The translations under genes were made by a program, and so were the position numbers. Shown here piece by piece: positions 6,880-22,418 of a stretch of DNA of 23,026 bases (position 1 is the stretch's first letter; every line of letters begins with the position of its first letter). The DNA is from an uncultured Subdoligranulum sp. (GTDB taxonomy: Bacteria; Bacillota_A; Clostridia; Oscillospirales; Ruminococcaceae). Under the pieces are notes generated by a model. That model was not told where the DNA came from and searched no databases. It worked only from the letters and a program-made list of their open reading frames with translations. The DNA lies in contig NZ_CALADU010000187.1 of assembly GCF_937890665.1 (NCBI RefSeq), positions 1 through 23,026 of the forward strand, in the 5' to 3' direction.

Positions 6880-6891
6880 TGATCAACTGAC

Positions 6892-6910
6892 AGCATACCG
6901 ATAGTATGCT
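6892..6910. repeat. Small palindrome after ligA
   Basis: AGCATAC and GTATGCT form a perfect 7-bp inverted repeat with a 5-nt spacer, between the ligA stop and the larger hairpin. On the plus strand it is followed by ATATTTTCTT, so it could stop antisense transcription or be a protein-binding site. Its function is not known. Confidence 0.35.
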
Positions 6911-6918
6911 ATATTTTC

Positions 6919-8943
6919 TTACTCAGCGCCGGCCATGCTGAAGAACTCCGCAGGTGACAGCACCGTAACGCCCAAATCCCTGGCCTTGGATAACTTGCTG
7001 CCGGCATTTTCGCCACAGACCAGATAATCCGTCTTCTTGGACACCGAGCTGCCGGCATGGGCGCCCAGTGATTCGATCAGGTCATTGATTCCGTCCCGGG
7101 TGTAGGGTTCCACCTTGCCGGTAACTACGATAGTCTTTCCTACAAAGGGATTATCCTGCACCCTGTCTTCGCTGTGTTCTGCCACAGCAGGCTTTTGAAT
7201 ACTCATCATAGTCTGTAACTCCTCCCAAATACAAAAATTATCTTCTACACAGAACCAGTCGTGGATATTGTTATGCAATATCTCCCCGAAATCCGGAAGC
7301 TGCCGGAAATCATAGCCGCCATAGACCGCATCCCGAAACTCATCCAAATCATAGTGGAACACACGACCCAATACCTTGCTGGCAGTGTTGCCGATCATAG
7401 GGATGTCCATAGAAATCAGATACCGTTCAAAGGTGGTATTCCGGCTCTGCTGGATAGCGTCCCAAAGGCGCTGCCAGGACTTTTCACCAAATCCATCCAT
7501 GCGGACGATTTCAGCCCGGTAACGATCCAGACGGTAAATATCCAGATAACTATGGATAAATCCCTGACCGATGAATTTTTCCAATGCAGCCTCCGACAGC
7601 CCTTCAATGTCCATTGCCTTCTGGCTGACAAAATGGACGAACTTTTTCAGCCGACGTGTCTCGCAGTCAGGGTTATCACAGTACAGCGTCTTGATGATGC
7701 GATTCTCGCCATTTTCGCCCTTTCCACTTGATTCATGGATGCGGGTAGGCTGTCCACAGCAGGGACAAACATGGGGAATCGTATCCACCATAGAGAAGCC
7801 GCCTCTGTCCAGATTTTCCTCCACGTGGGGGATAATCATGTTTCGTTTGCTTACCAGAATCCGGTTTCCAGCCATCAGTTCCAGATCCTCAATAAAGGAC
7901 AGGTTGTGCAGACTGGCCCTGCTGACCTCACAGCCATCGATTTCCACCGGCGTAAACACTGCTACCGGAGCAATCTCTCCGGTTCTGCCCGGTGTCCATT
8001 CGATGTACTGCAGCAGGCTCTCATGCAGGTCATCTTCAAACTTATAGGCCAGACCGTCCTTATAGTGATGTCCGGTGCGGCCGCAGCTCTGGGCATAGGC
8101 GATGTCGTTAAACGAAACCACGATACCGTCAATGGGGATATCTTTGTCAGTGGCATATTGCCGCAGCTGATAGATACCGGCTTCCACATTTTCCAGCGTC
8201 AGTTTCTGCTTTGTGACCAGATACTTACAGGGCTGGAACCCCAACGCACGCAATTCCCGTAGCTTATCTGATTTCCGGGTCAGGTGCGGAAAGCCCTCCA
8301 GCACACCAAACGGCATGAAAACCAGCCGACGCTCCTGGCATATCTTGGCATCCATCAGACGGATGGAACCGGCAGCCAGATTGCGGCCGTTTTTATAGGG
8401 CTTACCGCTGCTGTCCTGCAGGCTGGTCTTCAGTTCCTCAAAATCACTGGGTCTGATAAAGCCCTCGCCCGTCACAACCAGTCTCTCTTTGTAGGTGATG
8501 TGGGAAGGGATACCGCTGATGGCTCGGGTGTTATGGGTAATGATCTCCCCTTCGTCACCATCGCCACGGGTAGCCGCCTCCAGAAGTTCTCCATTCTCAT
8601 AGGTCAACTTTACAGTCAAGCCATCCAGTTTGAGCATCAGCATCACCTGCTGCTCACCCATGAAATTCAGAAGATCCATACTGCTCTTAGTCTTATCCAA
8701 AGACAGCAGCGGGATCTCATGTCTGGTTTTCTCCAGCCTGCTCACCGCAGGATAGCCTACTGTCTGGGTTGGCGAATTTGCCATTTGGATTCCCGTTTCC
8801 TGTTCCAGCTCTTTCAACTCGTCAAAGAGTCTGTCATAGACCTCATCTGACACGCTGGGAGCGTTGCGGTTATAATACTCATCCCGATAGCGGTTGAGCC
8901 GGTCATTCAATTCCCTCTGCTTTTCAAAAATATTCCGTTCCAT
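6919..8943 (-). CDS. ligA: NAD-dependent DNA ligase, element-encoded
   Basis: It seals nicks in duplex DNA using NAD+ as adenyl donor. At 674 aa it matches full-length bacterial LigA. In order: NMN-binding domain Ia (DEYYNRNAPSVSDEVYDRLF, about 21-40); adenylation domain with the nucleophile Lys105 in KLDGLTV and the RGDGDEGE motif; OB fold; a four-cysteine zinc finger (CPCCGQ and CDNPDCE); a helix-hairpin-helix region; and a C-terminal BRCT domain (NPFVGKTIVVTGKVE and KKTDYLVCGENAGSK). All key elements are visible, so it is probably active. It starts by a one-base overlap (TAATG) with the 107-aa gene and ends block A. The host should have its own ligA elsewhere, so this copy is likely for element replication. 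The KLDGLTV motif departs slightly from the common KIDGLA. Confidence 0.95.
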   Translation of the reverse strand: MERNIFEKQRELNDRLNRYRDEYYNRNAPSVSDEVYDRLFDELKELEQETGIQMANSPTQTVGYPAVSRLEKTRHEIPLLSLDKTKSSMDLLNFMGEQQVMLMLKLDGLTVKLTYENGELLEAATRGDGDEGEIITHNTRAISGIPSHITYKERLVVTGEGFIRPSDFEELKTSLQDSSGKPYKNGRNLAAGSIRLMDAKICQERRLVFMPFGVLEGFPHLTRKSDKLRELRALGFQPCKYLVTKQKLTLENVEAGIYQLRQYATDKDIPIDGIVVSFNDIAYAQSCGRTGHHYKDGLAYKFEDDLHESLLQYIEWTPGRTGEIAPVAVFTPVEIDGCEVSRASLHNLSFIEDLELMAGNRILVSKRNMIIPHVEENLDRGGFSMVDTIPHVCPCCGQPTRIHESSGKGENGENRIIKTLYCDNPDCETRRLKKFVHFVSQKAMDIEGLSEAALEKFIGQGFIHSYLDIYRLDRYRAEIVRMDGFGEKSWQRLWDAIQQSRNTTFERYLISMDIPMIGNTASKVLGRVFHYDLDEFRDAVYGGYDFRQLPDFGEILHNNIHDWFCVEDNFCIWEELQTMMSIQKPAVAEHSEDRVQDNPFVGKTIVVTGKVEPYTRDGINDLIESLGAHAGSSVSKKTDYLVCGENAGSKLSKARDLGVTVLSPAEFFSMAGAE

Positions 8944-9266
8944 TATGCTGCCTCCTTTTCAAGTACCCGGAAGGACATAACCAGTTCTTCTTCCGTATGC
9001 TTCTGTTCACTGTCGAAAACACTGCAAACACCGTCTGCAAACTGCCAGTGGGCGGCTCTGCCCCACCAAAGGATCGGGCCGCGGCCGCCGTTGCCTCTGT
9101 TGGCAGACGCATCTGGCTGATTCGCTACGGTACTATAAAAGCCCTGCGTGTTTACCAGCGTAATGTTCCGTATCTGCCCAATACATTCCGGCCGACAGTG
9201 ATCCAATATCTCCAACTGCGTCCCTTCCCGAAGTGTCCTGCGCAGCTGATTCAGGTTTTTGATCAT
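8943..9266 (-). CDS. Hypothetical protein (107 aa) upstream of ligA
   Basis: Family not recognised. The start at 9266 is set by AAGGAG eight bases upstream; an earlier in-frame ATG at 9299 has no site and would overlap the neighbour more. The protein looks beta-rich and compact, with a conserved-looking centre (GQIRNITLVNTQGFYS, WWGRAAHWQF) and several Trp, Gly and Asn residues. It overlaps the upstream 85-aa gene by 4 bp and ligA by 1 bp, so it is translated with both. An accessory role in replication is possible from context alone. Confidence 0.75.
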   Translation of the reverse strand: MIKNLNQLRRTLREGTQLEILDHCRPECIGQIRNITLVNTQGFYSTVANQPDASANRGNGGRGPILWWGRAAHWQFADGVCSVFDSEQKHTEEELVMSFRVLEKEAA

Positions 9267-9520
9267 GCGATTTTCTCCTTTCCCCGCCCCACAGGGCAAT
9301 CCTGCTGTGCGGTATGCAGCCCATTTCTGCCGGCTGCATATCTGCCAAAATTCAATTCATGGACAATACGCTGAATGGCGTCATCATCGTCCCACGCTGC
9401 GTGAAGCGTATTCCGCTCTGGCCCGGCTCCCACATGGACACATACCTTTTCACTGCCAACCTGCAGCAGCACATCCTGTCGCCTGGCGCAAACCACTGCC
9501 AGATTTCCAATTTGTTTCAT
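9263..9520 (-). CDS. Hypothetical protein (85 aa)
   Basis: Family not recognised. It is a small soluble protein with an N-terminal beta-like segment (LAVVCARRQDVLLQVGSEKV), then VHVGAGPER and a helical HELNFGRYA segment. AAGGAG precedes the ATG at 9520 by about 8 bases. It overlaps the 107-aa gene by 4 bp (ATGA). The hairpin at 9547-9574 lies just upstream, between it and the pcfJ-like gene. Confidence 0.7.
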   Translation of the reverse strand: MKQIGNLAVVCARRQDVLLQVGSEKVCVHVGAGPERNTLHAAWDDDDAIQRIVHELNFGRYAAGRNGLHTAQQDCPVGRGKEKIA

Positions 9521-9546
9521 GCTCTGCTCCTTCCTTCTTCATCAAT

Positions 9547-9574
9547 GACCGGACGCCCTCAAGGACGCCCGGCC
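9547..9574. repeat. Hairpin in the pcfJ-like/85-aa intergenic gap
   Basis: GACCGGACGCCC, a TCAA loop and GGACGCCCGGCC form a stem of 12 pairs when wobble pairs are allowed on the minus-strand RNA (loop UUGA). No U run follows on the minus strand, so it is unlikely to be a terminator there. It may be an RNA processing or stability element that separates expression of upstream and downstream operon parts (inference). Confidence 0.45.
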
Positions 9575-9586
9575 ATTCTCATTTTG

Positions 9587-11773
9587 TCACGCTGCAGCAG
9601 CCAATGCCGGAGACTGGATGCTATCCGTGTTTTCCATCAGGTCAGCCATCAGCACATCCGCCAAAAGCCTTCCTGCCAAATGGCCGGTATGAATGATGAC
9701 CCGATCCTTCTTCAACTGGATAAACTCCTTCTCACGAAGAATCCTGCTTTCCGCAGCCAGCGCCTTGTCGCTTTCTGTCAGCCTGGCAGTAATCACCCGC
9801 TGCCACTTCTGCAGAAACTCGGTCGCCTGCTCAATGTCCTTCTTCTGCCGGTCATATTCCGTCCGTTTCTGCCGCACTGTTCCATCTGGCTCCACTTCCA
9901 GCGTGTAATAGGCATGGAAAGGATCAGCCGTTTTACGCAGAAACATCACAAAGCTTTCTCGCCGCTCAATCCGGTCCCAGTAGCGGTCACTGCTGCCTGC
10001 ACAGTGATGGAGCGCACGCCCCTCGGTAATAATGTCCAGAATACCGTCTGGCACCACTACCATGTAATCCGCATCGGCGTACTCATATTTCGCTTTGATT
10101 TCCTGACAGATAGCATTAACATGGGGGAATTTCTCCTCCATCTCCTCGGCCTGCAGTTCAATATCCTTCTCCTGGCATTTGAGCACCAGATCATCGTGGC
10201 GCCGCCGCAGTTTTCTGGTGCGATATACGATCTCATCATATACATCCATGTGCAATTTCTTTGCCATGGAAAGATAATCCTCCCAGGTACGCAATACCTC
10301 ATGGCTGTTTCTCCGGAAGGATGGCATCTGACGCCGTACATAGTTATAGACCTGCACCATGCTCATGCGGTCAGCAATGAACTGGACATCCCTGGGGCTA
10401 ATGTTCTGCTGACACATCCACAAAAGGACATTATCTGGGATTTCCCTGTCGGTGCCCTTTTCATATTGCAGCCACCGCAGCAGATCACAGCCTCCATTAT
10501 GGAGCCGAAGTCGCTGAAACCTCCTGCTGTCAAGGCCCAGAGCTTTAATCAGACTCCCGGCACTATGGTTTTTGATTAGTTCACTGACTGTTCCGCAGGA
10601 ACTGAAACATTCCTTGGTAAGCTTCGGCAGGTTCACCTTGCTGATCTGCTCCATTTGCGGTATCCGTTCAAGCACTGCCAGATATTTTTCCGGGTCAACA
10701 CTTTTCTGCTTCCGAATCCAGTTGACCAGCCCTGTGCATCGAAGTTCCTTCTGTTCCAGAGTTGGCAGCGTTTTTCCATAGACCCGTCCATCATGTGAAC
10801 CAGACCAACTATAAGAACAGGGGCTTCCGGAAATCCAGCGCATATTTCGCTGTTTATACAGACCCCAATAGTAGGTTCTTGGTTTTCTTTCCCGGTCATA
10901 AATCGTGCGCCGGATTTCCTGACAATAAAGCTTGGAGTTTGGAAGGCTTTCTTTCCCATATGTCCGGTCAGCCTGAAATTCACGAACTACAAAACCGTCT
11001 TTGCATCGCTGGATTAGGTAGGCAAAATGTTTTTCTGTCTGCATATACCCCGCTCGTCCATAGGCTTTGAATACCACCGGATGTCGGCAGCAGCTACAGC
11101 GGCCTTGTTGATTGTGATGGGGATGCACCTTGATCGGCACTTCCTTTTCGCAGTAGGTACAGTAACCTGTTTTGGCGCCGCCCTTTTTGTAGTGGTAGTA
11201 AATGTAATTTTGCCGGATGGCAACCTTATCCACCCAGCGGTTCCAGTCCTTGGGAAGCTCCGGCACCTGTTCCATATCCTTATCCCATGGATCAGTTTCC
11301 CGCCGGTGCCGCTGTTCGAGCTGTTCCTCACGCACATTCCGCTGAAACTGCCGGATTGCCTCTACCGCTTTTTTATTGATGTTCAGATATGCCTGTATAG
11401 ATGTCTCATCTTCCTCGCTGACCCAGTAGGCTTTGGTATACCAGTATCGGCGCTTCCAGTCCAATCTGTCCAGTTTGGCCTCACACCATTTCTGGTTCAG
11501 GCTATTATAAGTAATAAATTGCCGCTTTTCTTTATCCAGATACACTTCGTAAGCTGGGCTATTCCCGTCTATGCGAAGATGCTCTGGGAAAAAGAAAGCC
11601 ACCTTCAATATCCCATCCTGCGTGATGCATCTCAGGTAAACATAATACTCACAAACCTCCTGAACATATCCGTAGGCGATTTTTTCTTTTCTTGGCAAGT
11701 CTGACGCCGCGATCTGCTTCATCTCATCCGTCGCTGTCAGCTTGGGAAGTGCCATCAGGGCTCTTTTTTTCAT
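9587..11773 (-). CDS. PcfJ-like protein
   Basis: It resembles PcfJ, a protein of unknown biochemical role encoded on conjugative plasmids such as pCF10 and on many ICEs and phages. It has 728 aa. The N-terminal half has a possible zinc ribbon with Cys205, Cys208, Cys226 and Cys229. The diagnostic PcfJ core is in the C-terminal third: GRALHHCAGS at 585-594, RESFVMFLRK, then YYTLEVEPDG and VRQKRTEYD. The start at 11773 is one base after the stop of the DUF7666-like gene, implying coupled translation. A PcfK-like gene lies two genes upstream, the classic pairing. The C-terminus is Ala-rich and looks unstructured. Confidence 0.85.
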   Translation of the reverse strand: MKKRALMALPKLTATDEMKQIAASDLPRKEKIAYGYVQEVCEYYVYLRCITQDGILKVAFFFPEHLRIDGNSPAYEVYLDKEKRQFITYNSLNQKWCEAKLDRLDWKRRYWYTKAYWVSEEDETSIQAYLNINKKAVEAIRQFQRNVREEQLEQRHRRETDPWDKDMEQVPELPKDWNRWVDKVAIRQNYIYYHYKKGGAKTGYCTYCEKEVPIKVHPHHNQQGRCSCCRHPVVFKAYGRAGYMQTEKHFAYLIQRCKDGFVVREFQADRTYGKESLPNSKLYCQEIRRTIYDRERKPRTYYWGLYKQRNMRWISGSPCSYSWSGSHDGRVYGKTLPTLEQKELRCTGLVNWIRKQKSVDPEKYLAVLERIPQMEQISKVNLPKLTKECFSSCGTVSELIKNHSAGSLIKALGLDSRRFQRLRLHNGGCDLLRWLQYEKGTDREIPDNVLLWMCQQNISPRDVQFIADRMSMVQVYNYVRRQMPSFRRNSHEVLRTWEDYLSMAKKLHMDVYDEIVYRTRKLRRRHDDLVLKCQEKDIELQAEEMEEKFPHVNAICQEIKAKYEYADADYMVVVPDGILDIITEGRALHHCAGSSDRYWDRIERRESFVMFLRKTADPFHAYYTLEVEPDGTVRQKRTEYDRQKKDIEQATEFLQKWQRVITARLTESDKALAAESRILREKEFIQLKKDRVIIHTGHLAGRLLADVLMADLMENTDSIQSPALAAAA

Positions 11774-11774
11774 C

Positions 11775-12317
11775 TCAATTCACCGTCCTTCTTGTCAAAT
11801 CCACGCCATACCACACATCCGGCAGTAATGTGACACCATCAATTTGTCCTACAGCAACCTGTACGATACTTTCCGAATCCGGCGCTTCCTTCGCAAAAGC
11901 AAGGATGTCTCCCAGTCTGCCGGTGGCAACGGGGTCTTTCCCCCGTACCACCGCATAACCGCAGTTCGCCATTGCCCGGTTGGCTGCCACATGGGAACTC
12001 CACACCCTGCGCGGGTGATCTACCATGTAGGCCAAACCATGTAAAAACAGCTCCTCTTTGGTTAGCCGCTTAATCACAGTCAACTCCGTACAGGCGATTT
12101 TGGAGTCATGCTCATCTTCATCGATGTCGCCGCCGGCGTTGACAATATAATATTCCGAATGCTCCAGGCTGGAATAATAACTAAGGCAGTCCAGCGGATT
12201 TTCCGCACAGTGAAATCCATTTTCCCTGCAATTTGCTTTTTCAGTCGTATTGAGCCCCATCACAAACTGATAGCCACGGCATATCAGCCCGGGGCGAAAA
12301 CCCTTATAAGCAATCAT
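11775..12317 (-). CDS. DUF7666-like protein
   Basis: This 180-aa protein matches the form of a domain common in phages and plasmids. It begins MIAYKGFRPGLICRGYQF, has a GFHCAENPLDCLSYY motif, an acidic DIDEDEHDSKIA stretch, then a helical repeat-like tail with HVAANRAMANCG. The biochemical role of the family is unknown to me. The frame is open another 96 codons upstream, but that part is Arg-rich antisense-like sequence inside the pcfK-like gene. The start at 12317 is therefore preferred, with AGGAGG 11 bases upstream. It lies between the pcfK-like and pcfJ-like genes. Confidence 0.75.
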   Translation of the reverse strand: MIAYKGFRPGLICRGYQFVMGLNTTEKANCRENGFHCAENPLDCLSYYSSLEHSEYYIVNAGGDIDEDEHDSKIACTELTVIKRLTKEELFLHGLAYMVDHPRRVWSSHVAANRAMANCGYAVVRGKDPVATGRLGDILAFAKEAPDSESIVQVAVGQIDGVTLLPDVWYGVDLTRRTVN

Positions 12318-12342
12318 TCTGCATTTTTCCTCCTTTGCCGGC

Positions 12343-13263
12343 TCAGCCTGCCTTTGCCATCCCAAAATCCAGCAGCGACATCTGCCCATCCTGAGAAGGC
12401 TTTTTTTCCTCCTGCTTGGGTGCCGCCTTGGGTTCCGTCTTTTTCTTCTCTGCCGCCTTCTTGGGTTTGCTCTTTGCAGAGGACTTCCCAGCATACGGCT
12501 TGGGAACAAACTTCTCCTCATCCTCATGGTCTTCCTTGGCATCAGGGTCACGGAAATAATCTTCCGCCCACTGATAGCACATATCATCCGGCACATCGCA
12601 GCCATATGTCTGCTGTCCGGGACCAGGGCGGGTTCCGCTTGCTTTTAGTTCATCCTGCACATAATCCCATGCCTTTCGGTTGATGTACTGGAAACAGCGG
12701 ATCATGTTCTTTTTCGGATGCATCGTCAGACGGGCAAACGCCGTATCTTCCATACAGAGCATCTGGATATGCTCGGACACACATTCCTTCATATTTCGCC
12801 GTGTCAGTTTTTCTACATCGGTACTCACCCTCTGGGTAGAGGCCGCGATTACTTCTTCATCACTCATCGCTTCCAGACGGGCGATTTGCTCCTGCTCCGC
12901 GGCTTTCTTCGCCTGCTGTTTGGCGTCAAATTCCGCTTTGCGCTGGGCTTCAGCCGCCTCATGCTCCGCACGCTTTTTTTCTTCATCTTCTGCGGCGGGC
13001 GGTTGTGCCGAATTCCCCTCCTCAGCAGACTTCTCTTCCCCAGCAGGCGCTACTTCATCCGCAGGTTCCTCCTCTGCATCAGCCAAAGCAGTCTCACCGG
13101 CAGAAACCGAAGCCGCCGATACTGGGACAGTGTCTGTACCTACAGGCGGCACAGGCAAAGATTCCATCTCCTCCAGCTCAAAGGCTTCATCATCCTCAAA
13201 GGCTGCAGACGAATCGAACATACTGTTTTGCTGCTCCATTGCTATTTCTGAAAAAACACCCAT
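12343..13263 (-). CDS. PcfK-like protein with acidic N-terminus and possible clamp-binding tail
   Basis: The conserved PcfK-like region is about residues 155-245 (MKECVSEHIQMLCMEDTAFA, HPKKNMIRCFQYI, PDDMCYQWAEDYF). It is preceded by a long acidic, Ala/Pro/Glu-rich N-terminal tract and a coiled-coil-like stretch (about 92-135), and followed by a Lys-rich linker. The very end reads QMSLLDF at residues 294-300, close to the bacterial beta-clamp consensus QL(S/D)LF. The start at 13263 has AAGGAG eight bases upstream; an earlier ATG at 13320 overlaps the hairpin and is rejected. Family function is uncertain. Its place in a replication operon and the tail motif suggest that it works at the fork (inference). 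Confidence 0.8.
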   Translation of the reverse strand: MGVFSEIAMEQQNSMFDSSAAFEDDEAFELEEMESLPVPPVGTDTVPVSAASVSAGETALADAEEEPADEVAPAGEEKSAEEGNSAQPPAAEDEEKKRAEHEAAEAQRKAEFDAKQQAKKAAEQEQIARLEAMSDEEVIAASTQRVSTDVEKLTRRNMKECVSEHIQMLCMEDTAFARLTMHPKKNMIRCFQYINRKAWDYVQDELKASGTRPGPGQQTYGCDVPDDMCYQWAEDYFRDPDAKEDHEDEEKFVPKPYAGKSSAKSKPKKAAEKKKTEPKAAPKQEEKKPSQDGQMSLLDFGMAKAG

Positions 13264-13285
13264 TGTAAAATCTCCTTTCGCAAAA

Positions 13286-13326
13286 AATGGCATGGAGTAG
13301 GCCGTTATGACCCTTTCCATGCCATT
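13286..13326 (-). terminator. Terminator-like hairpin before the pcfK-like gene (possible attenuator)
   Basis: A perfect 11-bp inverted repeat (AATGGCATGGA and its complement) with a 19-nt loop is followed on the minus strand by TTTTGC, making six T in a row with the stem end. It sits between the 82-aa gene and the pcfK-like gene, inside an otherwise continuous operon. Partial termination or RNA processing is likely; the AT-rich stem base suggests leaky stopping. Confidence 0.55.
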
Positions 13327-13335
13327 GTGTGTTGC

Positions 13336-13584
13336 TCACAGCACATATAAAAGTGTGCTGAAGCTGTCAAAACAGTAGCAGACCACGCCAGTATACTGCC
13401 TTGACCATTCCTTGATTTTGTCCTGCACCTCCTGCGCAGTCTTTTGATTGCTCATGTTCCAGGGTGGAGGTACCGTTACGGTAAAGTAGCCATTCTCCAG
13501 ACAACTTCTGACATCTGCCGGAAGATTGGAGCACTGCTCATACAGTGCTGTAATCTGGCTTTTCTTCTTTTCTGCAATACGCAT
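13336..13584 (-). CDS. Hypothetical protein (82 aa)
   Basis: Family not recognised. It is a small protein with a basic helical N-terminus (MRIAEKKKSQITALYEQC), a central hydrophobic strand (GYFTVTVPPPW) and an amphipathic helix (QEVQDKIKEWSRQY), ending in a hydrophobic tail. The start lies 15 bp after the primase stop, with a moderate AGGGG site. A terminator-like hairpin follows it. Its genuine coding status rests on operon position and reasonable composition. Confidence 0.65.
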   Translation of the reverse strand: MRIAEKKKSQITALYEQCSNLPADVRSCLENGYFTVTVPPPWNMSNQKTAQEVQDKIKEWSRQYTGVVCYCFDSFSTLLYVL

Positions 13585-13599
13585 CTGACCCCTATCCCT

Positions 13600-15393
13600 T
13601 CATTCCTGTTTTTGAGCAGGCTCCGGAAGTCTTTTACACAAGAATGGGGAGAAGCGTACCGGCGCAAAATCCCGGCAGTCATTCACATAGAAGTATGTGC
13701 GTTTGCCTTGGCAGTCCAGTTCCACCACATCAGATGGAGCCAACGGACGGCCTCTGTAATCTTCCGGCAAATGCTCATTAAAGTCCAGGAACAGGCGCCC
13801 CAGCACTTCCATGTCATTCTGCCCCTTTGGGCAACAGACCTCTGCGCTCCATACCGTCTGATAGGCGGCAGCAGGCGGCTGTTCATATCCAGCCTTACGC
13901 AGTGCATCCAGTTGCTTGAACGCGAAAGGTACCGTCTGTGTCTCACCCAGGCAAAGCTGGTAAATGCAAAACCTCCGGAAAACTCTCTGGCTGTCCAGAA
14001 GATCCTTCAGCACCTGATTGCCCTGAGCAAGAAATATCTGATACTCTTCCTTTGTCAGCCCCAGATACTCTGTCAGGTCCAAATCTTTCTCCGCTCTGGT
14101 GTGCCAAAGCTCGACGCAGCCATCTATATAAGTAAAATCACACTTACCGCACAGATATTGCTGCTTAAAATTCATTCTCTGCACCTCCTTTTCCCTCTGT
14201 TCTTTCTCCCGAAGGGCAAGCTGCCAATCATCAAACCCTTTATAATTCGGATTCCAGGTCAGCCGACGACATGCCATTCCATTTTTTCGGGCCATCAGAT
14301 AGATCTTAGATGCCCCATTAGAGGTCATTTGGTTACTGTACTTATCCATATCATGAGCCTCAATGATCTCCTCAGTGCCATTCTGTGCCAACAGTGCAAA
14401 CAGCGTATCCAACTGGCTTGTGTTGTTTGCGCCGGCAATCGCCGCAAAAGTCCGGTTTGTCAGGCAGTGTGAGATGTCTGCTTTCAGCAGTCCCTCAATG
14501 ACATAGACCACCCGAGCAGATGGATTGCCGATAAAATGTACCGGGCTCCCGGATGTGACACCCATATTTTTGGACGAGGACGAAAACCAGATGTATTTGG
14601 CTCCTGACTTATCCGGTGGATCATCTTTTTGCTTGAGCGGACTATCCAAAAGTATCTGCAGGCCATGTATCATACCGTCGTATCCCACAGCTGGAATCAA
14701 AATCCCTGCGTTTTTTCGGTAGAAGTTCATGGTCCAGCGCCCGCTGTCATCCAGATAAAAGCCGGGCACCCCCTCCACCTTGCATCCCTGTTTCATCAGC
14801 CGCTCGGTAATGGAGCGGCAAAGGAAAGGGGGTGGAGTGCTCTTGAACCCAATCCGGTCGATCTGTTCATCCGACAGTCCCCGTTTTGGGGAGTGCAGAT
14901 GGTTGCGGTGGGCAGGCTGAAGAGGCAGCATAGCGAGCAGCAGCGAAAGCGTTTGATGAATTTCCTGTCCGCTGGCCCGTTCTGCTTGCTGCACTGTTTT
15001 TAGTTCGCCCCTCCTCTCATATCCGGCAAGGTCGGTCTGAGTCCCCGAAACCGGGGACCCAGTGCCAGCCTGCTGGTTTCCTGCCATCTCATATCCAGAG
15101 TTCGGCCGTTCCCTGTGAAAATCGTTGCACAGGGCTTCTCCTATCTCCCAATACGCATCGGATGTAGTCGTATTGTTTAGCCGCGCATAAAGCGCAAGCA
15201 TACCGCCATGCTCATCACAATAATTGCACCGCCAGACATTTTTGACGAAATTCACATTCATCTTGCCGCGGCGGTCACCACAAAACGGGCAATCCACATA
15301 TACACTGTTTGCCTGTCGGCGTCTGATTCGTAGATGTAGAAGTTCCACTACATCCATAATACCGAACGGAAAATCTCCTGGATATGAGTCCAT
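13600..15393 (-). CDS. DnaG-type primase (zinc finger plus TOPRIM) with C-terminal YodL-like domain
   Basis: It should synthesise RNA primers for DNA replication. Of 597 aa, the N-terminus has a zinc finger in which all four ligands appear to be Cys (35, 38, 56 and 59: CPFCGD and CNYCDE), a variant of the CHC2 finger. The TOPRIM core has Glu300 in VVYVIEGLLK and Asp348/Asp350 in HDMDKYSN. A linker with a CxxC pair (415/418) and a segment LTEYLGLTKEEYQ follow. The last part (about 470-585) matches the YodL-like domain: FNEHLPEDYRGRPLAPSDVV then YFYVN. That domain occurs in ICE antirestriction-type proteins. The start at 15393 has GGGAGG upstream. The fusion is unusual for a primase; no helicase domain is present. 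Confidence 0.88.
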   Translation of the reverse strand: MDSYPGDFPFGIMDVVELLHLRIRRRQANSVYVDCPFCGDRRGKMNVNFVKNVWRCNYCDEHGGMLALYARLNNTTTSDAYWEIGEALCNDFHRERPNSGYEMAGNQQAGTGSPVSGTQTDLAGYERRGELKTVQQAERASGQEIHQTLSLLLAMLPLQPAHRNHLHSPKRGLSDEQIDRIGFKSTPPPFLCRSITERLMKQGCKVEGVPGFYLDDSGRWTMNFYRKNAGILIPAVGYDGMIHGLQILLDSPLKQKDDPPDKSGAKYIWFSSSSKNMGVTSGSPVHFIGNPSARVVYVIEGLLKADISHCLTNRTFAAIAGANNTSQLDTLFALLAQNGTEEIIEAHDMDKYSNQMTSNGASKIYLMARKNGMACRRLTWNPNYKGFDDWQLALREKEQREKEVQRMNFKQQYLCGKCDFTYIDGCVELWHTRAEKDLDLTEYLGLTKEEYQIFLAQGNQVLKDLLDSQRVFRRFCIYQLCLGETQTVPFAFKQLDALRKAGYEQPPAAAYQTVWSAEVCCPKGQNDMEVLGRLFLDFNEHLPEDYRGRPLAPSDVVELDCQGKRTYFYVNDCRDFAPVRFSPFLCKRLPEPAQKQE

Positions 15394-15435
15394 CTGTTCT
15401 CCCTCCCTTCTTGGCCCCATAGATGGGGCTGCTTA

Positions 15436-16593
15436 TCATCCGGCTTTCTGTGCGGCCATACCATCGAGCATGATCTGCGCCGCAGCACGAACGATATTGT
15501 TGGTGCTCTTGTTGCCTGGGGTGAGGTAGAATTTCAGACTCACCGGACGCTCCTTGGCAACTGTTGCCATGGTCTTTCCTTTGCTCAGACCGCTATCCAC
15601 CACCACATTCTGCGCTTCTTCAAAGGTCATTACCTTCAAGATGTCTTCTACCGGAGTGCTCTCCGTATAAGAAGGCGCCACAGGCTGATCGGGTGCTTCC
15701 TGTTGGACAACAGGCGCCACAGGCAGTTCTTCCGGTTCATCCGATTGGAATACGGAGGCGGCCGGCTGCTCAGACGCATCATCCTGTTTTGGACTGCTAT
15801 CCAATGTAACCTCGCGGCTCGGTACCGGCAGCTCCATATTGGGAGCATTCTCCTCTACCTTGCCGGCAGGCAGTGTATCCATATTCTCCTTCTCTTCTGC
15901 AGCCATCTGCTGGACAGTGGGCTGTACCGGAGAAACCGGGGACTGTTCATTCTGAACCGGCTTTGCCGCAGGTTTCTGAATAGGCGCCGGACGAGCAGGC
16001 GCATTACGGCGCTCTACGGCGTTCTGAGGCGTTCTCTCCAGCTGGGCATGAACTTCCCCACCAGATTGCCGCAGCGCCGCTCCAGGGGCTTCTACGGGCC
16101 TCTGCGCCGCATTTGGCATCGGTTGCTGGATATGAGCTGTCCCGGAAAGCGGAATACTGCTTCCAAACACCTTGCCCGTACTGTCAACAGCAACATCGGC
16201 AAACTGCAGACCAAAACCGGCATCCGACAGCGCAGCACTCAATGCCTCATCCTGGGCAGCCTGCACATAGTCGGTACCTTCTTCCGCACTGTGCTGCGAG
16301 ATGTAACTGCTAATGGGCTCTGCATCACTGCGGTCCAGATAGACTCTGGCCTCCATAATCGCAAGCTGTTCCGTGATCCGCAGGGTAGTCAGTTTCATGC
16401 GGCCCTGGGGGTGGCGCAGACGGAACCACAGTTTCTGATAAGGCAATTCCAACTGCAGCATTTCCTCATTTGTCTTTCTGGACACCTTATGGCGCAGAAA
16501 TTTGAGCGGGTCAAAGCCCGGCACCTTGTTCAGTTCTGCCACTGCCGGAATTGTTTTGTACATCATAGGCATCGGATTACTTTTTTCGTTCAT
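15436..16593 (-). CDS. Probable single-strand annealing/recombination protein (Rad52-like N-terminus, exonuclease-X-type C-terminal motif)
   Basis: The 385-aa protein has three parts. Residues 10-135 form a conserved-looking domain: LPYQKLWFRLRHPQGRMK, LAIMEARVYLD and YVQAAQDEALSAALSDAGFG. The last motif resembles the helix typical of Rad52-superfamily annealing proteins, where an A-x-T/D-x-A-x-x-A-L pattern precedes GFG. Residues 150-310 are Pro/Gln/Glu/Ala-rich and disordered, like the linker of SSB and annealing proteins. Residues 315-385 (TFEEAQNVVVDSGLSKGKTM, IVRAAAQIML) resemble the short domain found at the C-terminus of some exonucleases and annealing proteins. It lies next to RecD2 and near a YqaJ exonuclease, as expected of a recombination pair. 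Assignment is inference; it could instead be a novel ssDNA-binding protein. Confidence 0.6.
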   Translation of the reverse strand: MNEKSNPMPMMYKTIPAVAELNKVPGFDPLKFLRHKVSRKTNEEMLQLELPYQKLWFRLRHPQGRMKLTTLRITEQLAIMEARVYLDRSDAEPISSYISQHSAEEGTDYVQAAQDEALSAALSDAGFGLQFADVAVDSTGKVFGSSIPLSGTAHIQQPMPNAAQRPVEAPGAALRQSGGEVHAQLERTPQNAVERRNAPARPAPIQKPAAKPVQNEQSPVSPVQPTVQQMAAEEKENMDTLPAGKVEENAPNMELPVPSREVTLDSSPKQDDASEQPAASVFQSDEPEELPVAPVVQQEAPDQPVAPSYTESTPVEDILKVMTFEEAQNVVVDSGLSKGKTMATVAKERPVSLKFYLTPGNKSTNNIVRAAAQIMLDGMAAQKAG

Positions 16594-16662
16594 GTTGGAA
16601 ACTCCTTTCTGACATAAAAATAGGAGACGCCAAGTGCTATTTCTGCATCTGACCTCTCTTTT

Positions 16663-18936
16663 TTAACTTGCGTTCTTCAATTGTTCTTCCAATGCAGCTG
16701 GAATGGGGATACCGGCTTTCTTTGCGTAGGCTTTGAAATACATCTGGATACGCATACCCAGCAGCGTATTTCGCTTTCCAATCTCATTACGATGGATTGC
16801 CATAAACAATACCTGTTTCTGCCCAATCAGCACCACCCGCTTTTTAGCGCGCGTGATTCCAGTGTAGAGCAGATTACGATACATCATGATAGTGTGCGCT
16901 TTGAGCAGCGGCATAATGACTGTTTCATACTCAGAGCCCATAGCCTTGTGGATCGTAGTAGCATAAGCCAGATCCACATTGCTCAAATCATCTACGCCAT
17001 ATTCCAGCGTCCTGCCAGCACCAAAATCCATGCCGATCTTTTTGCCCTGGTCAGTGTCCTTAATATACCGGATGAAACCCAAATCACCATTAGATACCTT
17101 TTCTGTGTTCTTGGTCTGCATGATGCGGTCATTGATCCGGAATATCTTGGGGCCAAACTTGATTTCCTCCTCCGCAGAGCGGAATGGGTTGACCAATTCA
17201 CGAATGGTCTCATTCAGCTGTTCCGACGACGCGGCGCCTTCTGAACGGAAAGGTGAAAGAATCTGCACATTCTCAATGCCACTCTCCTGTATCTCCAAAC
17301 AATACCGTTCTGTAATCTTTTCAGCGGTGTCTTCCTGACTATCACCAGACACGAAAACAAAGTCCGGTCCGTAAAACAGTTTGGTATTGCCCTCGTTGAT
17401 AAATTTGGCATTATAGGCAATCAGACTATCCTTCGACTGACGGAAAATCTGATCCAGCACCGTTACTGGGACGATTTTGGTTTCGATGATTTCACGAAAC
17501 ACATTTCCGGCTCCTACGCTCGGAAGCTGATCTGGGTCGCCTACCAGCACGATTCTGGCATTTATCTTCATGCGTTCAAAAAATTTCTCAGCAAGCCACA
17601 TATCCACCATGGAAAACTCATCCACAATGATTAAATCGGCCGACAGTGGCTCTGACTTTCTGTTCCGGCTACCCTCATCCTCTTCACTGGTCAGTCCCAG
17701 ACCACTGTGTAATGTTCGGGCATCCTCAAAGCCGGTACTCTCCGACATCCTGCGGCTTGCCCGACCGGTAGGTGCCATAAGAGCAATTTTGCCATCAGGG
17801 TACAGCCGCCGGTAAACCTCAAGTATCGTCCGCAGCACTGTTGTTTTACCAGTACCAGGAGAACCCGTAATCACTGACAAGCCATGCCTAAATGCTGCAT
17901 AGACCGCAGCCTCCTGCTGTGCAGACAAGCGCAGTCCCATTTCAACCTTGACCTGTTCCAGTACCGGCGCAATATGCTCTACTGGCATCTGGGCGACCAG
18001 ACGCTGGGCGATCCGGCGCGCCGTTTCGTCCTCTTGGGCAAACACTCTGGGAAGATAGATATTATCCTTCACGGAAACGATTGCTCCATTCAGGATCATT
18101 TCCTGCATCATATCCCTGACTTCCTGCTGATGCAGGCGAAGCTCCGGTACAGGTATCTTCTCATTGAGCAGTTTCAGCGCTGATTTCTCCAGTTCTTCAG
18201 AACTGATGTACAGATGGCCTCGTTTACTCTTGCCCTCATCCAGCGCACAAAAGACAGCCCCTTTGATACGCATAGGGTCATGGAGATTGCCCCCGCTCTT
18301 TTGTACGATTGCATCTACCCGCCGAAATCCAAAGCCGGAGATCTGGCAAAGCTCAAATGGGCTCTTTTCCAAAATCTCTACGCTGGTCGGGCCGAAATAT
18401 TGATATATTTTCAATGCCGTCTTGGGAGTAATCTTAAACGGTGCCAGCAAGGTCATAATTCCTTGGAGCATACGGTTTTCTGCATAAGAAGCTTTGATGT
18501 CCTCCAATTTATTTTCCGTAATGCCCCGGATCTCCAACAGCCGCTCCGGCTGGTGTTCCAGAATATCCAGTGTGTCCACACCGAACCGCTCCACAATGTC
18601 TGCGGCGGTTTTGGGACCAATCCCTTTGATAAGCCCGGAGGCAAGATAGCCCTCTACGCCGTTTTTTGTTCTGGGCACAATTTCACGCCACTGCTCCACC
18701 TGGAGCTGGACACCATACTTGCCTTTTGCCCATTCCCCATCCAGTTCCAACTCTACCGCATCTGTCCGTGGAATCTCATACCCCACAGCTGTAAAGCGGA
18801 TCAAATGGTCTTTGTACCGCCTGTTTGACCTGGCCTCAGCTGGCACGCTCTGGTCTGCGGTTTTTACACTGACGATACAAAACTTATTGGCAGGATTATA
18901 AAAAATCGTCCCGTCGTAGGTACCAATACAATTCAT
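16663..18936 (-). CDS. recD2: RecD2-like ATP-dependent DNA helicase
   Basis: It is a superfamily 1B 5'-3' DNA helicase of 757 aa, the usual RecD2 length. The N-terminal OB-like domain (1-90) is followed by helix-hairpin-helix repeats (about 93-215: GLIKGIGPKTA, LLEIRGIT, CQISGFGFRRVDAI). Motor motifs: Walker A TGSPGTGKTT (357-366), Walker B LIIVDE (435-440), motif III GDPDQLPSVGAG (466-477), and the C-terminal IHKAMGSEYETV and YTGITRAKKRVVL motifs. No nuclease or RecB-binding features are present. GAGGTGAAAAAGG precedes the ATG, 14 bp after the YqaJ gene. It probably unwinds element DNA during replication or recombination. A chromosomal recD2 may also exist. Confidence 0.93.
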   Translation of the reverse strand: MNCIGTYDGTIFYNPANKFCIVSVKTADQSVPAEARSNRRYKDHLIRFTAVGYEIPRTDAVELELDGEWAKGKYGVQLQVEQWREIVPRTKNGVEGYLASGLIKGIGPKTAADIVERFGVDTLDILEHQPERLLEIRGITENKLEDIKASYAENRMLQGIMTLLAPFKITPKTALKIYQYFGPTSVEILEKSPFELCQISGFGFRRVDAIVQKSGGNLHDPMRIKGAVFCALDEGKSKRGHLYISSEELEKSALKLLNEKIPVPELRLHQQEVRDMMQEMILNGAIVSVKDNIYLPRVFAQEDETARRIAQRLVAQMPVEHIAPVLEQVKVEMGLRLSAQQEAAVYAAFRHGLSVITGSPGTGKTTVLRTILEVYRRLYPDGKIALMAPTGRASRRMSESTGFEDARTLHSGLGLTSEEDEGSRNRKSEPLSADLIIVDEFSMVDMWLAEKFFERMKINARIVLVGDPDQLPSVGAGNVFREIIETKIVPVTVLDQIFRQSKDSLIAYNAKFINEGNTKLFYGPDFVFVSGDSQEDTAEKITERYCLEIQESGIENVQILSPFRSEGAASSEQLNETIRELVNPFRSAEEEIKFGPKIFRINDRIMQTKNTEKVSNGDLGFIRYIKDTDQGKKIGMDFGAGRTLEYGVDDLSNVDLAYATTIHKAMGSEYETVIMPLLKAHTIMMYRNLLYTGITRAKKRVVLIGQKQVLFMAIHRNEIGKRNTLLGMRIQMYFKAYAKKAGIPIPAALEEQLKNAS

Positions 18937-18950: not shown

Positions 18951-20018
18951 CTAAGCGGCCTCCATAATCGAGGCTCTAACACTGAACCGTCTGGATTCGG
19001 ATACTGTAACAAACTGTTCGTAAATATCCGGATGCTCCAGTTTCAACCGAAGCAGGTTATCCTTGTCGATGATGGACTTGCGAACAGGGGTATAGGTAAC
19101 CGTATAGTTCACTCCCTCCTGCTCACAGACTGCAGTACAGCTGGTACCCATTTCCGCAATCAACAGCGCCTTCAGACGCTGAATATCCTTGTCGATTTCT
19201 TTGGAGTACACCTCTGCATTTTTCTTTTCATCCAGAAGCCGCAAATACTGCATGAGTTTTGCAGTCATATCCAGGTCGAGTGCAACGGCCGGGGCATTTT
19301 TATCTGCCGGGCCAAAGTGTTTGCGTGCGCTCTCAATAATCAAGGCCCCACTTTCTGTATAGGGCGGCGGCACATGGCGCTGCACATGGTTTTCCCAGAA
19401 ATACTGCTCCAAAAAGACCATCTCAGCCTCATACTCGAAATCACGCTTGACCTCCCGGATAATAACTTCCTCCTCGTTGTTACCATACAGGCAGCAAAAG
19501 AAACATCGGTCAAGATCCGTTACTGCCATATAATGACGCCCCTGAGATTCATAGTAGACTGGAACAGTCTCCTTCCCATTCATCCACCAGTTATCTCTGG
19601 CATTATAGTTTGTGGTCTTGATCTCAAGGATCGCTGTGGTGCCATCCGGCAGTTCCACAAAGTAGTCCACATCAGCCAGCATCCAAGGATACTGTGGGTG
19701 CTGGAACATCTTTTTGATTTGGTAGACCCGATATCCGGTTTTCCGCTCGAATATCTTTGCTACCAGTGGCTCCAGCAAATGCCCCATTTCCATGGCAACC
19801 CAGTTGCCCTCATCATCTTCCACTGACGCTATGTTCAGTTTGTCGTAGTACAGATCCCTGGCTGTCCGGAATGGAGAAGTGCCAAAGATTGCTGATACAT
19901 CGCTGCCGCCGATTCCACGGCGCCGGTAATCCAGCCAGTCTTCTTCTGAAAGATCTGCCGTTTCTACCAGCACCAGCGGTTCATGCCGCTTTTGTTCAGC
20001 ACTATTGCTGCCAGACAT
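18951..20018 (-). CDS. YqaJ-family (lambda-exonuclease-like) nuclease
   Basis: It is a predicted phage-type 5'-3' exonuclease that would make 3' single-stranded ends for an annealing protein. The 355 aa show the family motifs: GIGGSDVSAIFGTSPFRT (36-52), Glu83 in MGHLLEPLVAKIFE, LADVDYF with Asp116/Asp118, LEIKTTN with Glu132 and Lys134, and YESQGRHYMAVT with Gln159. The C-terminal third is helical and could hold a protein-interaction region. The start at 20018 has AAGGGGG upstream; an earlier in-frame ATG at 20078 lacks a site and lies inside the small upstream gene. It follows the 56-aa ORF by one base. Pairs functionally with the putative annealing protein two genes downstream. Confidence 0.92.
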   Translation of the reverse strand: MSGSNSAEQKRHEPLVLVETADLSEEDWLDYRRRGIGGSDVSAIFGTSPFRTARDLYYDKLNIASVEDDEGNWVAMEMGHLLEPLVAKIFERKTGYRVYQIKKMFQHPQYPWMLADVDYFVELPDGTTAILEIKTTNYNARDNWWMNGKETVPVYYESQGRHYMAVTDLDRCFFCCLYGNNEEEVIIREVKRDFEYEAEMVFLEQYFWENHVQRHVPPPYTESGALIIESARKHFGPADKNAPAVALDLDMTAKLMQYLRLLDEKKNAEVYSKEIDKDIQRLKALLIAEMGTSCTAVCEQEGVNYTVTYTPVRKSIIDKDNLLRLKLEHPDIYEQFVTVSESRRFSVRASIMEAA

Positions 20019-20019: not shown

Positions 20020-20190
20020 TCAAATCCCCCTTCGTGATCTTCGGGGCAAAATAACTGCCCTCGCCATTGGTGCAACATTTTGGGGCCGGAGCGAAGATAC
20101 TGCCTGTCTCTTCATCTTCCAGTCCGTGGAGTGTGCCGGCTTGACCCGCCGACCATTCTGCTTTCTTTTCTGCTTCACATTCATGTACAT
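20020..20190 (-). CDS. Small basic protein (56 aa), first gene of block A
   Basis: This is a short open frame, MYMNVKQKRKQNGRR at the start and ILPRRSRRGI at the end, with many Lys and Arg residues and no recognised family. Support: AAGGCAGG lies just upstream of the ATG at 20190, the stop lies one base before the nuclease start, and the leader region ends just before it. A second in-frame ATG lies two codons in. The high charge suits nucleic acid binding or an unstructured leader that couples translation to the nuclease gene. There is no homology evidence, so it may be a translated leader rather than a functional protein. Confidence 0.5.
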   Translation of the reverse strand: MYMNVKQKRKQNGRRVKPAHSTDWKMKRQAVSSLRPQNVAPMARAVILPRRSRRGI

Positions 20191-20247
20191 GACCTGCCTT
20201 TCTCAGTTTTGATTTATCCTTAAAGCCCTTTCAGGCTTACAGGCAAT

Positions 20248-20318
20248 AAAAAAGCGAGAATGACAGACGGCATAAAGCCTGGCGTCCATAGTTGCCTATG
20301 AACCGATGTCATTCTCGC
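20248..20318 (-). ncRNA. Three-way-junction RNA element with U-tract (terminator or riboregulator)
   Basis: On the minus strand, a perfect 12-bp outer stem (20254-20265 with 20307-20318) encloses two helices that abut without gaps: CATAG-GCAA-CTATG (20287-20300, a GNRA tetraloop) and GAC/GTC plus GGC/GCC with a four-base bulge (20266-20286). Six unpaired bases (20301-20306) complete the junction. Six T follow the outer stem directly (20248-20253). The tetraloop and the U tract make sense only on the minus strand. It may be an elaborate intrinsic terminator or a ligand- or protein-controlled one. Confidence 0.6.
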
Positions 20319-20342
20319 AATGGTGGGTAAATCCCGTAAAAT

Positions 20343-20365
20343 AAAAAAGCCAGCAATATACCGGC
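20343..20365 (-). terminator. First leader terminator
   Basis: GCCGG, a 7-nt loop and CTGGC (20349-20353 with 20361-20365, one wobble pair) are followed on the minus strand by TTTTTTATTTTA. An alternative hairpin GCC-TTTTCA-GGC just upstream shares bases with the terminator stem and would exclude it. This fits an attenuation switch, but the stem is short. Confidence 0.5.
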
Positions 20366-20384
20366 CTGAAAAGGCGCAGTGATA

Positions 20385-20429
20385 CTACTGACACAAGTAC
20401 AAAATTAACAGCGTGTGCAATGCAGTCAT
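20385..20429 (-). CDS. Candidate 14-aa leader peptide
   Basis: The frame reads MTALHTLLILYLCQ and stops 20 bases before the first leader terminator stem. Five of 14 residues are Leu. A GGAG lies only 2 bases before the ATG, which is too close for strong initiation. The ATG overlaps the stop of a preceding GTG-started 16-codon frame (20429-20479, TAATG), which itself has no clear binding site. Position between promoter and terminator is that expected of an attenuation peptide; translation is not shown. Confidence 0.3.
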   Translation of the reverse strand: MTALHTLLILYLCQ

Positions 20430-20438
20430 TACTCCGCA

Positions 20439-20460
20439 ACACAAGCCCTAAAGCCTGTGT
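20439..20460 (-). repeat. Leader hairpin 1
   Basis: ACACAGGC and GCTTGTGT pair over 8 bp (one wobble) with a 6-nt loop on the minus-strand transcript, about 30 nt after the expected start of transcription. No U run follows, so it is a structural or regulatory stem rather than a terminator. Confidence 0.45.
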
Positions 20461-20498
20461 ACCCTGACGGGCAACGCACAAAAATCAATTACATTGCA

Positions 20499-20527
20499 AT
20501 TCTAACACAATATATAGTGCTTGTCAA
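20499..20527 (-). promoter_or_regulatory. Strong sigma-A-type promoter for the replication operon
   Basis: The minus strand carries a perfect -35 TTGACA (20522-20527), a 17-bp spacer and a -10 TAGAAT (20499-20504, five of six matches). Transcription should start near 20492. It points away from xis/int, and nothing else in the 1 kb around it is as close to consensus. An AT-rich flank (TATATA runs at 20512-20545) lies in and upstream of it and may bind a regulator. Confidence 0.75.
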
Positions 20528-20685
20528 TTCAAACATTCTATATATTGATTTTTGGATTTTCTTTAAATTTTCTTTCCTCTTTGCAGAAGTTCTTTCTTCC
20601 CCGCCTATTTATAGGATGTATCGGATCATTTGGTAATACCGGATGATCCCTACGCTCTTTTAGTACCTTGACAAGTTCATAACCT

Positions 20686-21185: not shown

Positions 21186-22418
21186 ATGGCAAAAGTGAGA
21201 AAAGACAACAAAGGACGAAATCTTCGGCCCGGAGAAACACAACGGGCAGATGGCAGCTATATGTATGTCTACAAATTAGGCACTAAAAAGAAATATCTCT
21301 ACGACTCCGATCTCGCAAGTCTTCGTGTCAAAGAAAAGCAGATCAACAAAGATAAGGATGATGGCATCCGTACTCAGGAAGCCATGAAGCTTACCCTGAA
21401 TGATATGTTCAAGGTCTACATGAATAACAACATCAAACTGAAGCCCTCTACCAGAGCAAATTATCTTTACCTGTGGGACTTCTATGTGAAAGAAGAGCCT
21501 TTCGCTAACATGCCTCTTCCACAAATCCACAGAAGTGATATTCTCGCGTTTTATACCAAACTGCTGAAACACGGCTTTGCTATCAACTCACTGGAGAGCA
21601 TCAACACCATTGTTCACCCTACGCTTGAAATGGCCGTGGACGACGATTACATCCGCAAAAATCCCAGCAAGGGCATTTACCGCAAGCTCAAAACGGATGG
21701 CAGCGCTCCAAAGCCTAAACGGCGGATCGCACTCACTAAAACGCAACAGCAGAATTTCCTGCGTTTTATTGCCAAGTCCCCTACATACAGCCATTGGCTC
21801 CCCATCATGACTGTGCTCCTTGGAACAGGAATGCGTGTAGCAGAATGTACCGGCATTACCAAAAGCGATATTAACTTGAGCGAAAACACAATCTCGGTCA
21901 ACCACAACTTAATCTACCGGGTCATTGATGGAAAAGCCGGATTTCACATTACCACTCCCAAAACTGAGAGCGGTACACGAATTATCCCTATCCTCTATCC
22001 AGAGGTGGCCGAGCAGCTTCGCCTCCAAATTGAAACCATCGACGCATTGTATCCAGACGATCAACTGGTGTTAGGAGGAGTTCACGGTTTTGTTTTCCGC
22101 AACAGAACCGGCTCATTCATGAGCGCCCACAATATCAATCGGGCGATTGAGAGAATCAGCGTAACTTACAACATGGAGGAAATGGATCAGGCTGAACTGG
22201 AAGACCGTGAACCGGATCTGCTCCCTCATTTTAGTGTTCACAACTTGCGGCACACCTTCTGTACCCGGCTCTGCGAAAGCACCAACGATGTTAAATTCAT
22301 TCAGCAAGTCATGGGGCATGCCGATTTCTCTACTACAATGGACATCTACACCCATATCACACAAGAGAATATGCAGGAGAAGGCAAAAAACATTAGTGTG
22401 AACATGAAGCTGATGTAA
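21186..22418 (+). CDS. int: Tyrosine-family integrase (Tn916 Int-like)
   Basis: It is a site-specific recombinase of 410 aa, typical for Tn916-family integrases. An N-terminal arm-binding domain (about 1-65; GSYMYVYKLGTKKKYLY) is followed by a core-binding SAM-like domain (about 70-170) and the catalytic domain. Active-site residues visible: Arg217 (GTGMRVAE), Lys259 (TPKTESG), His352 and Arg355 (HNLRHTF), His378 (MGHADFSTT) and the nucleophile Tyr388 (MDIYTH). All are present, so it is probably active. CAGGAGG lies ahead of the ATG. A hairpin follows immediately and then direct repeats near metG, as expected for an attachment site. Confidence 0.96.
   Translation: MAKVRKDNKGRNLRPGETQRADGSYMYVYKLGTKKKYLYDSDLASLRVKEKQINKDKDDGIRTQEAMKLTLNDMFKVYMNNNIKLKPSTRANYLYLWDFYVKEEPFANMPLPQIHRSDILAFYTKLLKHGFAINSLESINTIVHPTLEMAVDDDYIRKNPSKGIYRKLKTDGSAPKPKRRIALTKTQQQNFLRFIAKSPTYSHWLPIMTVLLGTGMRVAECTGITKSDINLSENTISVNHNLIYRVIDGKAGFHITTPKTESGTRIIPILYPEVAEQLRLQIETIDALYPDDQLVLGGVHGFVFRNRTGSFMSAHNINRAIERISVTYNMEEMDQAELEDREPDLLPHFSVHNLRHTFCTRLCESTNDVKFIQQVMGHADFSTTMDIYTHITQENMQEKAKNISVNMKLM

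Follow-up and report, generated by a model that had tools for sequence, protein, structure and literature searches.

The stretch of DNA analysed, hereafter the window (23,026 nucleotides from an uncultured Subdoligranulum sp.), carries on its minus strand a series of co-directional ORFs that begins with a small basic ORF and the recombinase gene yqaJ and covers about 18.6 kb (1598-20184), not the 13 kb given in a preliminary description of this DNA. From the spacing of the ORFs we infer that the run is one operon. A Tn916-type integrase gene diverges on the other side of the leader and the locus was therefore taken as the end of an integrative element; beyond the integrase, on the minus strand, an ORF with a tRNA-binding domain (22547-23023) is probably a host gene beside the attachment site. 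The translational start of yqaJ is probably at 20018, behind AAGGGGG, rather than at the listed 20078, and the stop codon of the basic ORF ends 1 nt before this preferred start. Within the run, the PcfK-like protein (12343-13320, minus strand, PF14058) had no match in NCBIfam or PADLOC. In pCF10 the gene next to PcfJ carries the annotation of the AcrIIA9 family of Cas9 inhibitors, so the run may hold anti-defence functions. The features of the locus are collected in Table 1.

Table 1. Genes and proposed leader elements of the window, in the order in which the minus strand is read, with the divergent integrase last.
Feature	Coordinates	Strand	Basis or description
Upstream ATATAT dyad (possible operator 1)	20538..20547	minus	recurring CTATATATAG-like dyad 5' of the -35 box, by eye
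Predicted promoter	20499..20527	minus	TTGACA - 17 - TAGAAT with extended -10 TG; 11/12 consensus matches
ATATAT dyad in promoter spacer (possible operator 2)	20506..20519	minus	conserved CAATATATTGTG-like spacer, by eye
Domain A, multibranched RNA domain	20393..20493	minus	near-invariant 5' box UGUAAUUGAUUUUUGUGC and 3' box GCAUUGCACACG..GUU..UUUGUA; alignments A2 and A3
T1, putative first terminator: hairpin (20392-20349) and U tract	20343..20392	minus	fold; covarying helix 5 of A3
T2, putative second terminator, with inner 8-bp helix and weak 3-bp helix	20248..20318	minus	fold, covariation, model R1 (87.4 bits)
Stretch 3' of T2	20211..20244	minus	conserved among aligned relatives as GCCCAAATGCCG..CGGCTTTGAGGATA
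Small basic ORF, first gene of the run	20020..20184	minus	54 aa (56 from the ATG at 20190); pI about 12, about 30% K+R
yqaJ (lambda-exonuclease-like recombinase)	18951..20018	minus	PF09588 (9.7e-29), TIGR03033 (2.1e-33)
Rest of the run: recD2, CHC2/YodL protein, PcfK, DUF7666, PcfJ, LigA, two large domain-less ORFs	1598..18936	minus	
Tn916-type tyrosine integrase, divergent from the leader	21186..22418	plus	PF02920, PF00589

When the minus strand of T2 was folded, the perfect 12 bp outer stem (20318-20307 with 20265-20254), the six U directly 3' of it (20253-20248) and an inner helix of 8 bp (20303-20284) capped by a GCAA loop were all seen; the preliminary description had proposed the stem, the GCAA-capped helix and the U tract. 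That description also had two inner helices abutting without gaps, which the MFE structure did not bear out: the second inner helix (20279-20269) was weak, with 3 bp only, and 3, 4 and 3 bases of the junction were unpaired. The MFE was -33 kcal/mol versus -17.19 (sd 2.9) in shuffled sequences (z -5.45), and none of 200 shuffles was as stable. By MFE alone T2 was not outstanding, ranking 47 among 9180 sliding 76-nt windows of the window. The most stable of these windows lies at a 14-bp hairpin with a weak T tail (6845-6879, minus strand), near the predicted start of a 731-aa ORF inside the run.

In an alignment of 33 distinct sequences, 13 of the 19 pairs of T2 were changed on both sides, versus a mean of 6.1 after shuffling, showing that T2 has been kept as an RNA structure. 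A lack of such compensatory changes was what the preliminary description had named as speaking against its reading, and on this check the reading was not refuted. The share of paired cells was 95.4% (87.2 shuffled) and there were 65 double-change cells (18.7 shuffled); none of 500 shuffles reached the observed values for paired share, pairs or cells, and 24 of 500 reached the measure of further pair types. Slid partners paired in just 34.5-48.0% of the cells. This covariation rules out a plain chance hairpin. The alignments exclude the 26-nt matches of L010 and L017, and A1 also excludes the truncated end of L041 and the degenerate second copy of L049.

As judged from these 33 relatives, the perfect 12-bp stem, the GNRA loop and the third helix are not conserved: a GNRA loop was present in 12; two registers of the third helix were seen, one in 10 sequences and the other in 12; and the invariant A at position 9 of the outer stem was mismatched in 7. 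The conserved elements of T2 are a terminator stem and one inner helix, and the three-way junction is not supported as its organising unit. The proposal of an undescribed cis-regulatory RNA of mobile elements is supported as regards a conserved cis-acting RNA without a match in Rfam 15, and not as regards the junction. A hairpin followed at once by a U tract was found at T2, both in the window and in the aligned relatives, and at T1, and both are putative intrinsic terminators, termination being predicted from this arrangement.

T2 appears to be not the core of this RNA but the later of a pair of built-in stop signals within a leader of about 250 nt. Along the aligned leaders the same series of elements recurs: the dyads with the promoter come first, domain A and its near-invariant boxes next, and T1, T2 and a conserved stretch then lead to the gene. 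The promoter predicts a transcription start near 20492, model R2 (domain A plus T1) matched 20337-20493 at 142.3 bits, and the whole-leader fold had a z of -5.40. A shorter hairpin nested in T1 passed the terminator pattern scan, and the U tract of T1 was present in 71 of 78 distinct copies, being absent in 7 (L098 and L109, for example). The upstream dyad was judged on the 77 of these 78 copies in which a -35-like box was located with at most 2 mismatches. R2 matches were longer than usual in L006 (201 nt) and L014 (194 nt), and L117 (347-540, minus strand) has an additional hairpin-like insert within the 3' box region.

Domain A plus T1 was 93.5% paired over 74 distinct rows, with double changes at 22 of 31 pairs and in 238 cells versus 67.1 after shuffling; because this alignment was CM-fitted, its covariation leans towards structure. 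All 7 pairs of the T1 helix (helix 5 of A3) were changed on both sides, and within domain A covariation was strongest in the inner hairpins. The outer helices were near-invariant and so say little on structure, with double changes at 1 of 5 and 1 of 6 pairs: UA to AU in 6 of the 74 sequences at one pair of helix 1, and UA to CG in 4 of the 74 at one pair of helix 2. No Rfam 15 model reached its gathering score anywhere in the window; with E up to 5, two weak miRNA models were the only matches in 20200-20560, leaving the leader without a riboswitch match, and an earlier description of the leader was not found in the open-licence PMC literature searched. We judge the leader to be a real conserved regulatory RNA, forming a new family as far as searched, of a known general kind.

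The leader matched by BLAST in 10 of 199 related genomes; one of the ten, G131, had a match of just 26 nt and was dropped. Relatives of YqaJ were located at 41 loci in genome contigs, and a leader match (E up to 0.01) was found at all of them but L059. One carrier is Anaerotruncus colihominis DSM 17241, whose cassette (L020) showed 99.7% identity over 347 positions. With R2, under strict filters by which weak matches are lost, the module was found in 18 of 394 genomes of the order (8 with one copy, 10 with two or three), 4 of 391 of the class (two of which, G001 and G035, had been counted before) and 2 of 398 of the phylum (again including G001). In 7 of the 18 order genomes two copies faced each other on one contig, at about 78 kb in G001, 72 in G311, 60 in G450, 56 in G245, 34 in G223, 9 in G405 and 2 kb in G259. 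Facing copies were also present in the locus-derived genomes G200 (about 60 kb) and G201 (about 106 kb), while three copies on the same strand were seen in G202, a single one in G203 and, spread over several contigs, seven full or partial matches in G204. G576, from the class scan, had six copies, located on two contigs; an SSB-like gene follows one of them and different genes follow the others. An FMN riboswitch (RF00050; L120, 4488-4603), probably cargo, lies between the two modules of G001. R2 may serve to locate such elements, and the operons they carry, in genome sequences.

Sixty-one of the 78 distinct copies precede one of three gene types, and the presence of T2, counted as an R1 hit of at least 24 bits, tracked the type: all 37 copies before yqaJ (one weakly), 6 of 7 before a 67-aa ORF, none of 17 before ssb and 2 of the 17 without an assigned gene type, or 45 of 78 overall. 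Two copies with a hairpin at the same place, L116 (21.1 bits) and L115 (hairpin found by script), were counted as having no T2. In copies without T2, domain A and T1 run straight into the SSB-like gene (representative PF00436, 27.6 bits, cut-off 26). The upstream part of the leader (20493-20393) was found in more places than T2 and looks regulatory. Many of the copies that R1 and R2 find had gone into building these models; the yqaJ copies outside the training set (L086, L087, L097, L106 and L107) scored 35.8-45.8 bits with R1, and without L112 (27.1 bits) 36 of the 37 yqaJ copies have R1 at 35 bits or more. In a scan of pLS20 in full and of the initial 45 kb of pCF10, unrelated pCF10 sites reached 30.2 bits with R1, so that the R1 hits of 24-29 bits in the G576 copies are no proof of homology; the three weakest hits of the T2 model (24-27 bits) are in the range of unrelated terminators.

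Most yqaJ copies have a small basic ORF behind T2, which in the window (54 aa) falls below a 60-aa cut-off for ORFs. It showed a coding signal among its relatives, with a pN/pS of 0.24 over 35 pairs; the 25 pairs among those listed belong to a single clade and are not independent. The changes at the three codon positions were 128, 117 and 332 (332 of 577 at the third). The ORF was extracted leniently, by taking the longest one between 20 and 130 aa whose ribosome site matched at 3 or more of 6 positions, giving 33 distinct candidates from the 37 yqaJ copies, 27 of which were kept in the alignment; L054, L014, L112, L057, L034 and L086 were left out as mis-chosen, too long or less basic. Neither Pfam nor PHROG gave a match, one relative matched weakly (E 0.019) a PHROG family without function, and none of 5 relatives in protein databases is named. 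The ORF was not found behind the five non-ssb copies of G576. It is a candidate RNA-binding factor, and is put forward as that only. A gene for a sigma-70-like protein (L119:1603-2184) was found in 12 of the 18 module genomes versus 12 of 376 others, in ten of the twelve on the contig of the module, 1.7-9.5 kb from it and mostly at the ssb end. The association shows linkage within one element and not function; the protein is another candidate regulator, which would act at the promoter instead.

Taken together, these data suggest, with about an even chance of being right, that one family of Clostridia integrative elements reuses this leader before several operons, which would be terminated by default and opened by a factor acting at domain A. 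By default RNA polymerase would stop at T1 and T2; a factor recognising domain A and its near-invariant boxes in the nascent RNA would let the polymerase pass both terminators, and the operons of the element would open together. The double gate of T1 and T2 would stand before the run of recombination, primase and PcfJK genes, and the single gate of T1 before ssb, which may need basal expression. A repressor or activator bound at the two ATATAT dyads could add a second layer of control, and the factor itself may be encoded by the basic first ORF behind T2, a candidate that would act like N with positive feedback. When the 45 leaders having a T2 match were folded, the predicted MFE structure retained 24 or more paired bases within T1 in all 45 and 30 or more within T2 in 43 (not in L049 and L079), suggesting that termination is the default fold. 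On average 85% of the pairs of domain A stayed internal, with far lower values in some leaders (8 of 21 in L097, 16 of 39 in L004). Sites resembling terminators within the run, as would be expected of action over distance, were few and short on the minus strand (13; 29 on both strands versus 17.9, sd 4.4, in shuffles), the 14-bp hairpin at 6845-6879 excepted. Such a leader could silence and open large operons of gut-Clostridia integrative elements jointly, and its boxes, two gates and candidate factor are testable with simple reporters.

An extended form of this reading is a new system of element-wide processive antitermination in gut Clostridia, in which a nut-like RNA at several operons (at least two, and six in one of the genomes) and tandem terminator gates would be served by a fast-evolving R/K-rich micro-protein, encoded immediately behind the gate and opening all copies in trans; we hold it as tentative and on balance unlikely. 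If true, the micro-protein system would be a bistable switch for the gene expression of the element.

A similarly unlikely explanation is that T1 and T2 merely insulate, stopping transcripts that enter from host DNA or weak promoters, with domain A having another task (RNA stability, for example) and regulation taking place at the dyads. The dyads at the promoter are indeed conserved, and a terminator near one end of Tn916 acts as an insulator (PMC11658703). However, T1 and T2 sit 3' of the element's own strong promoter, so that its own transcripts would be stopped too, and the best conserved part is domain A, followed by a U-tracted T1 in 71 of the 78 copies. It is less probable again that domain A modifies RNA polymerase by itself, in the manner of put, EAR or canT, as a constitutive antiterminator that needs no element protein. 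Its placement between promoter and terminators is that of canT before T1 of Tn916, the boxes are near-invariant and a competing helix with good support is absent; yet if it were always active the terminators right behind it would be purposeless, and transcripts reading in from upstream would carry domain A as well.

A gate opened by a factor can also be compared with a helix switch, an attenuator or riboswitch in which a ligand would shift domain A so that another helix breaks T1 or T2. Such a switch would be in keeping with a multibranched, highly conserved domain immediately 5' of a terminator, and the alignment allows the 5' box to match the 5' arm of T2 through 8 pairs. This match showed zero compensatory changes in the scan of 30 non-redundant full leaders, and a second competitor on paper, GCGA/UUGC (4 pairs), had 6 compensatory cells at one pair. 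At thresholds of 85% canonical cells, 70% occupancy and at least 4 pairs, judged by counts, no helix competing with T1 or T2 had more than 2 compensatory pairs, whereas the stems of T1 and T2 themselves had 5 and 6. Since no competing helix covaries comparably, a factor is favoured over a helix switch, which is not proof of a factor; a classical attenuator was rejected on the same absence, and with no Rfam riboswitch match in the leader we regard the ligand-driven switch as quite improbable.

Poorer still are the prospects of a trans-acting small RNA, in which the T1-ended product would be the functional molecule and the genes behind would live on leak: a strong promoter and a terminator within about 150 nt and several similar copies per genome would suit it, but the placement of 61 of the 78 copies before three gene types, with T2 tracking the type, does not, even with 17 copies outside these types. 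A promoter active in single-stranded DNA, or another DNA-level element working on entry (Frpo type), appears very improbable: the downstream ssb, recombination and PcfK genes resemble establishment functions, the cassettes are repeated before several operons and the minus strand of the window can, as DNA, form pairs between the 5' box and the upstream flank around the promoter, but the DNA folds had z values of only -2.5 and -1.5, with 3 and 11 of 200 shuffles as stable, a flank-box match of at least 9 bp occurred in 4 of 78 copies, and G-U pairs and a one-sided U tract point to RNA.

Two further candidates were rejected. For antitermination of the LoaP/NusG type, a search of 12 genomes found no NusG closer than 70 kb to a module, the nearest lying about 76 kb away (G207); 11 of the 12 genomes had one NusG and G200 had two. 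The DUF3268 k-junction RNA, a family presumably contained in Rfam, was considered since the element encodes a DUF3268 protein, and gave no match in the stretches searched. That RNA is described as a three-way junction (PMC10573300).

On the favoured reading, the leader would be like conAn, canT or nut in kind. In lambda (N/nut) and HK022 (put), an RNA site lies near the promoter with terminators behind it, and the unit occurs in two operons of one element. The leader is like both, by description only, in its RNA site by the promoter, the terminators behind and the repetition of the unit across operons; that the basic ORF acts like N is a guess.

Processive antitermination is established for conjugative elements, with conAn of pLS20 (PMC8955417) and canT of Tn916 (PMC11658703). 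Like the leader as proposed here, conAn (ConAn1 protein plus conAn2 RNA) is an antitermination unit of RNA plus protein at the start of a conjugative-element operon (PMC8955417). In contrast, the present leader has several copies per element and putative terminators immediately behind the RNA domain, and R2 gave on the whole pLS20 record a single match of 7.1 bits (E 8.3). Likewise, R2 had no match in all of pCF10 (best 13.7 and 13.3 bits), which we take, from gene order, to hold a Tn916-like segment. Matching neither pLS20 nor pCF10, the leader is not a recognisable member of the conAn or canT families and may work alike; a distant relation to the pLS20 RNA is possible.

The likeness to canT/T1 of Tn916 is that of an ICE with a structured RNA placed after a promoter and before a terminator (PMC11658703), and the integrase of the window is also of the Tn916 type; for canT, a 452-bp fragment was shown to be active, and a 341-nt one also, with no other Tn916 gene needed (PMC11658703). 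Lastly, EGeRS1 and EGeRS2, the establishment regulatory sequences of pLS20-family plasmids, resemble the leader in being conserved regulatory sequences that recur in front of several operons within a single conjugative element, and EGeRS2 has a promoter plus operators (PMC8708921). EGeRS1 differs in its length of 400-600 bp and in that the copy tested was without a strong sigma-A promoter (PMC8708921), whereas the leader, of about 300 bp, combines a predicted sigma-70 promoter with 11 of 12 consensus matches and putative tandem terminators.
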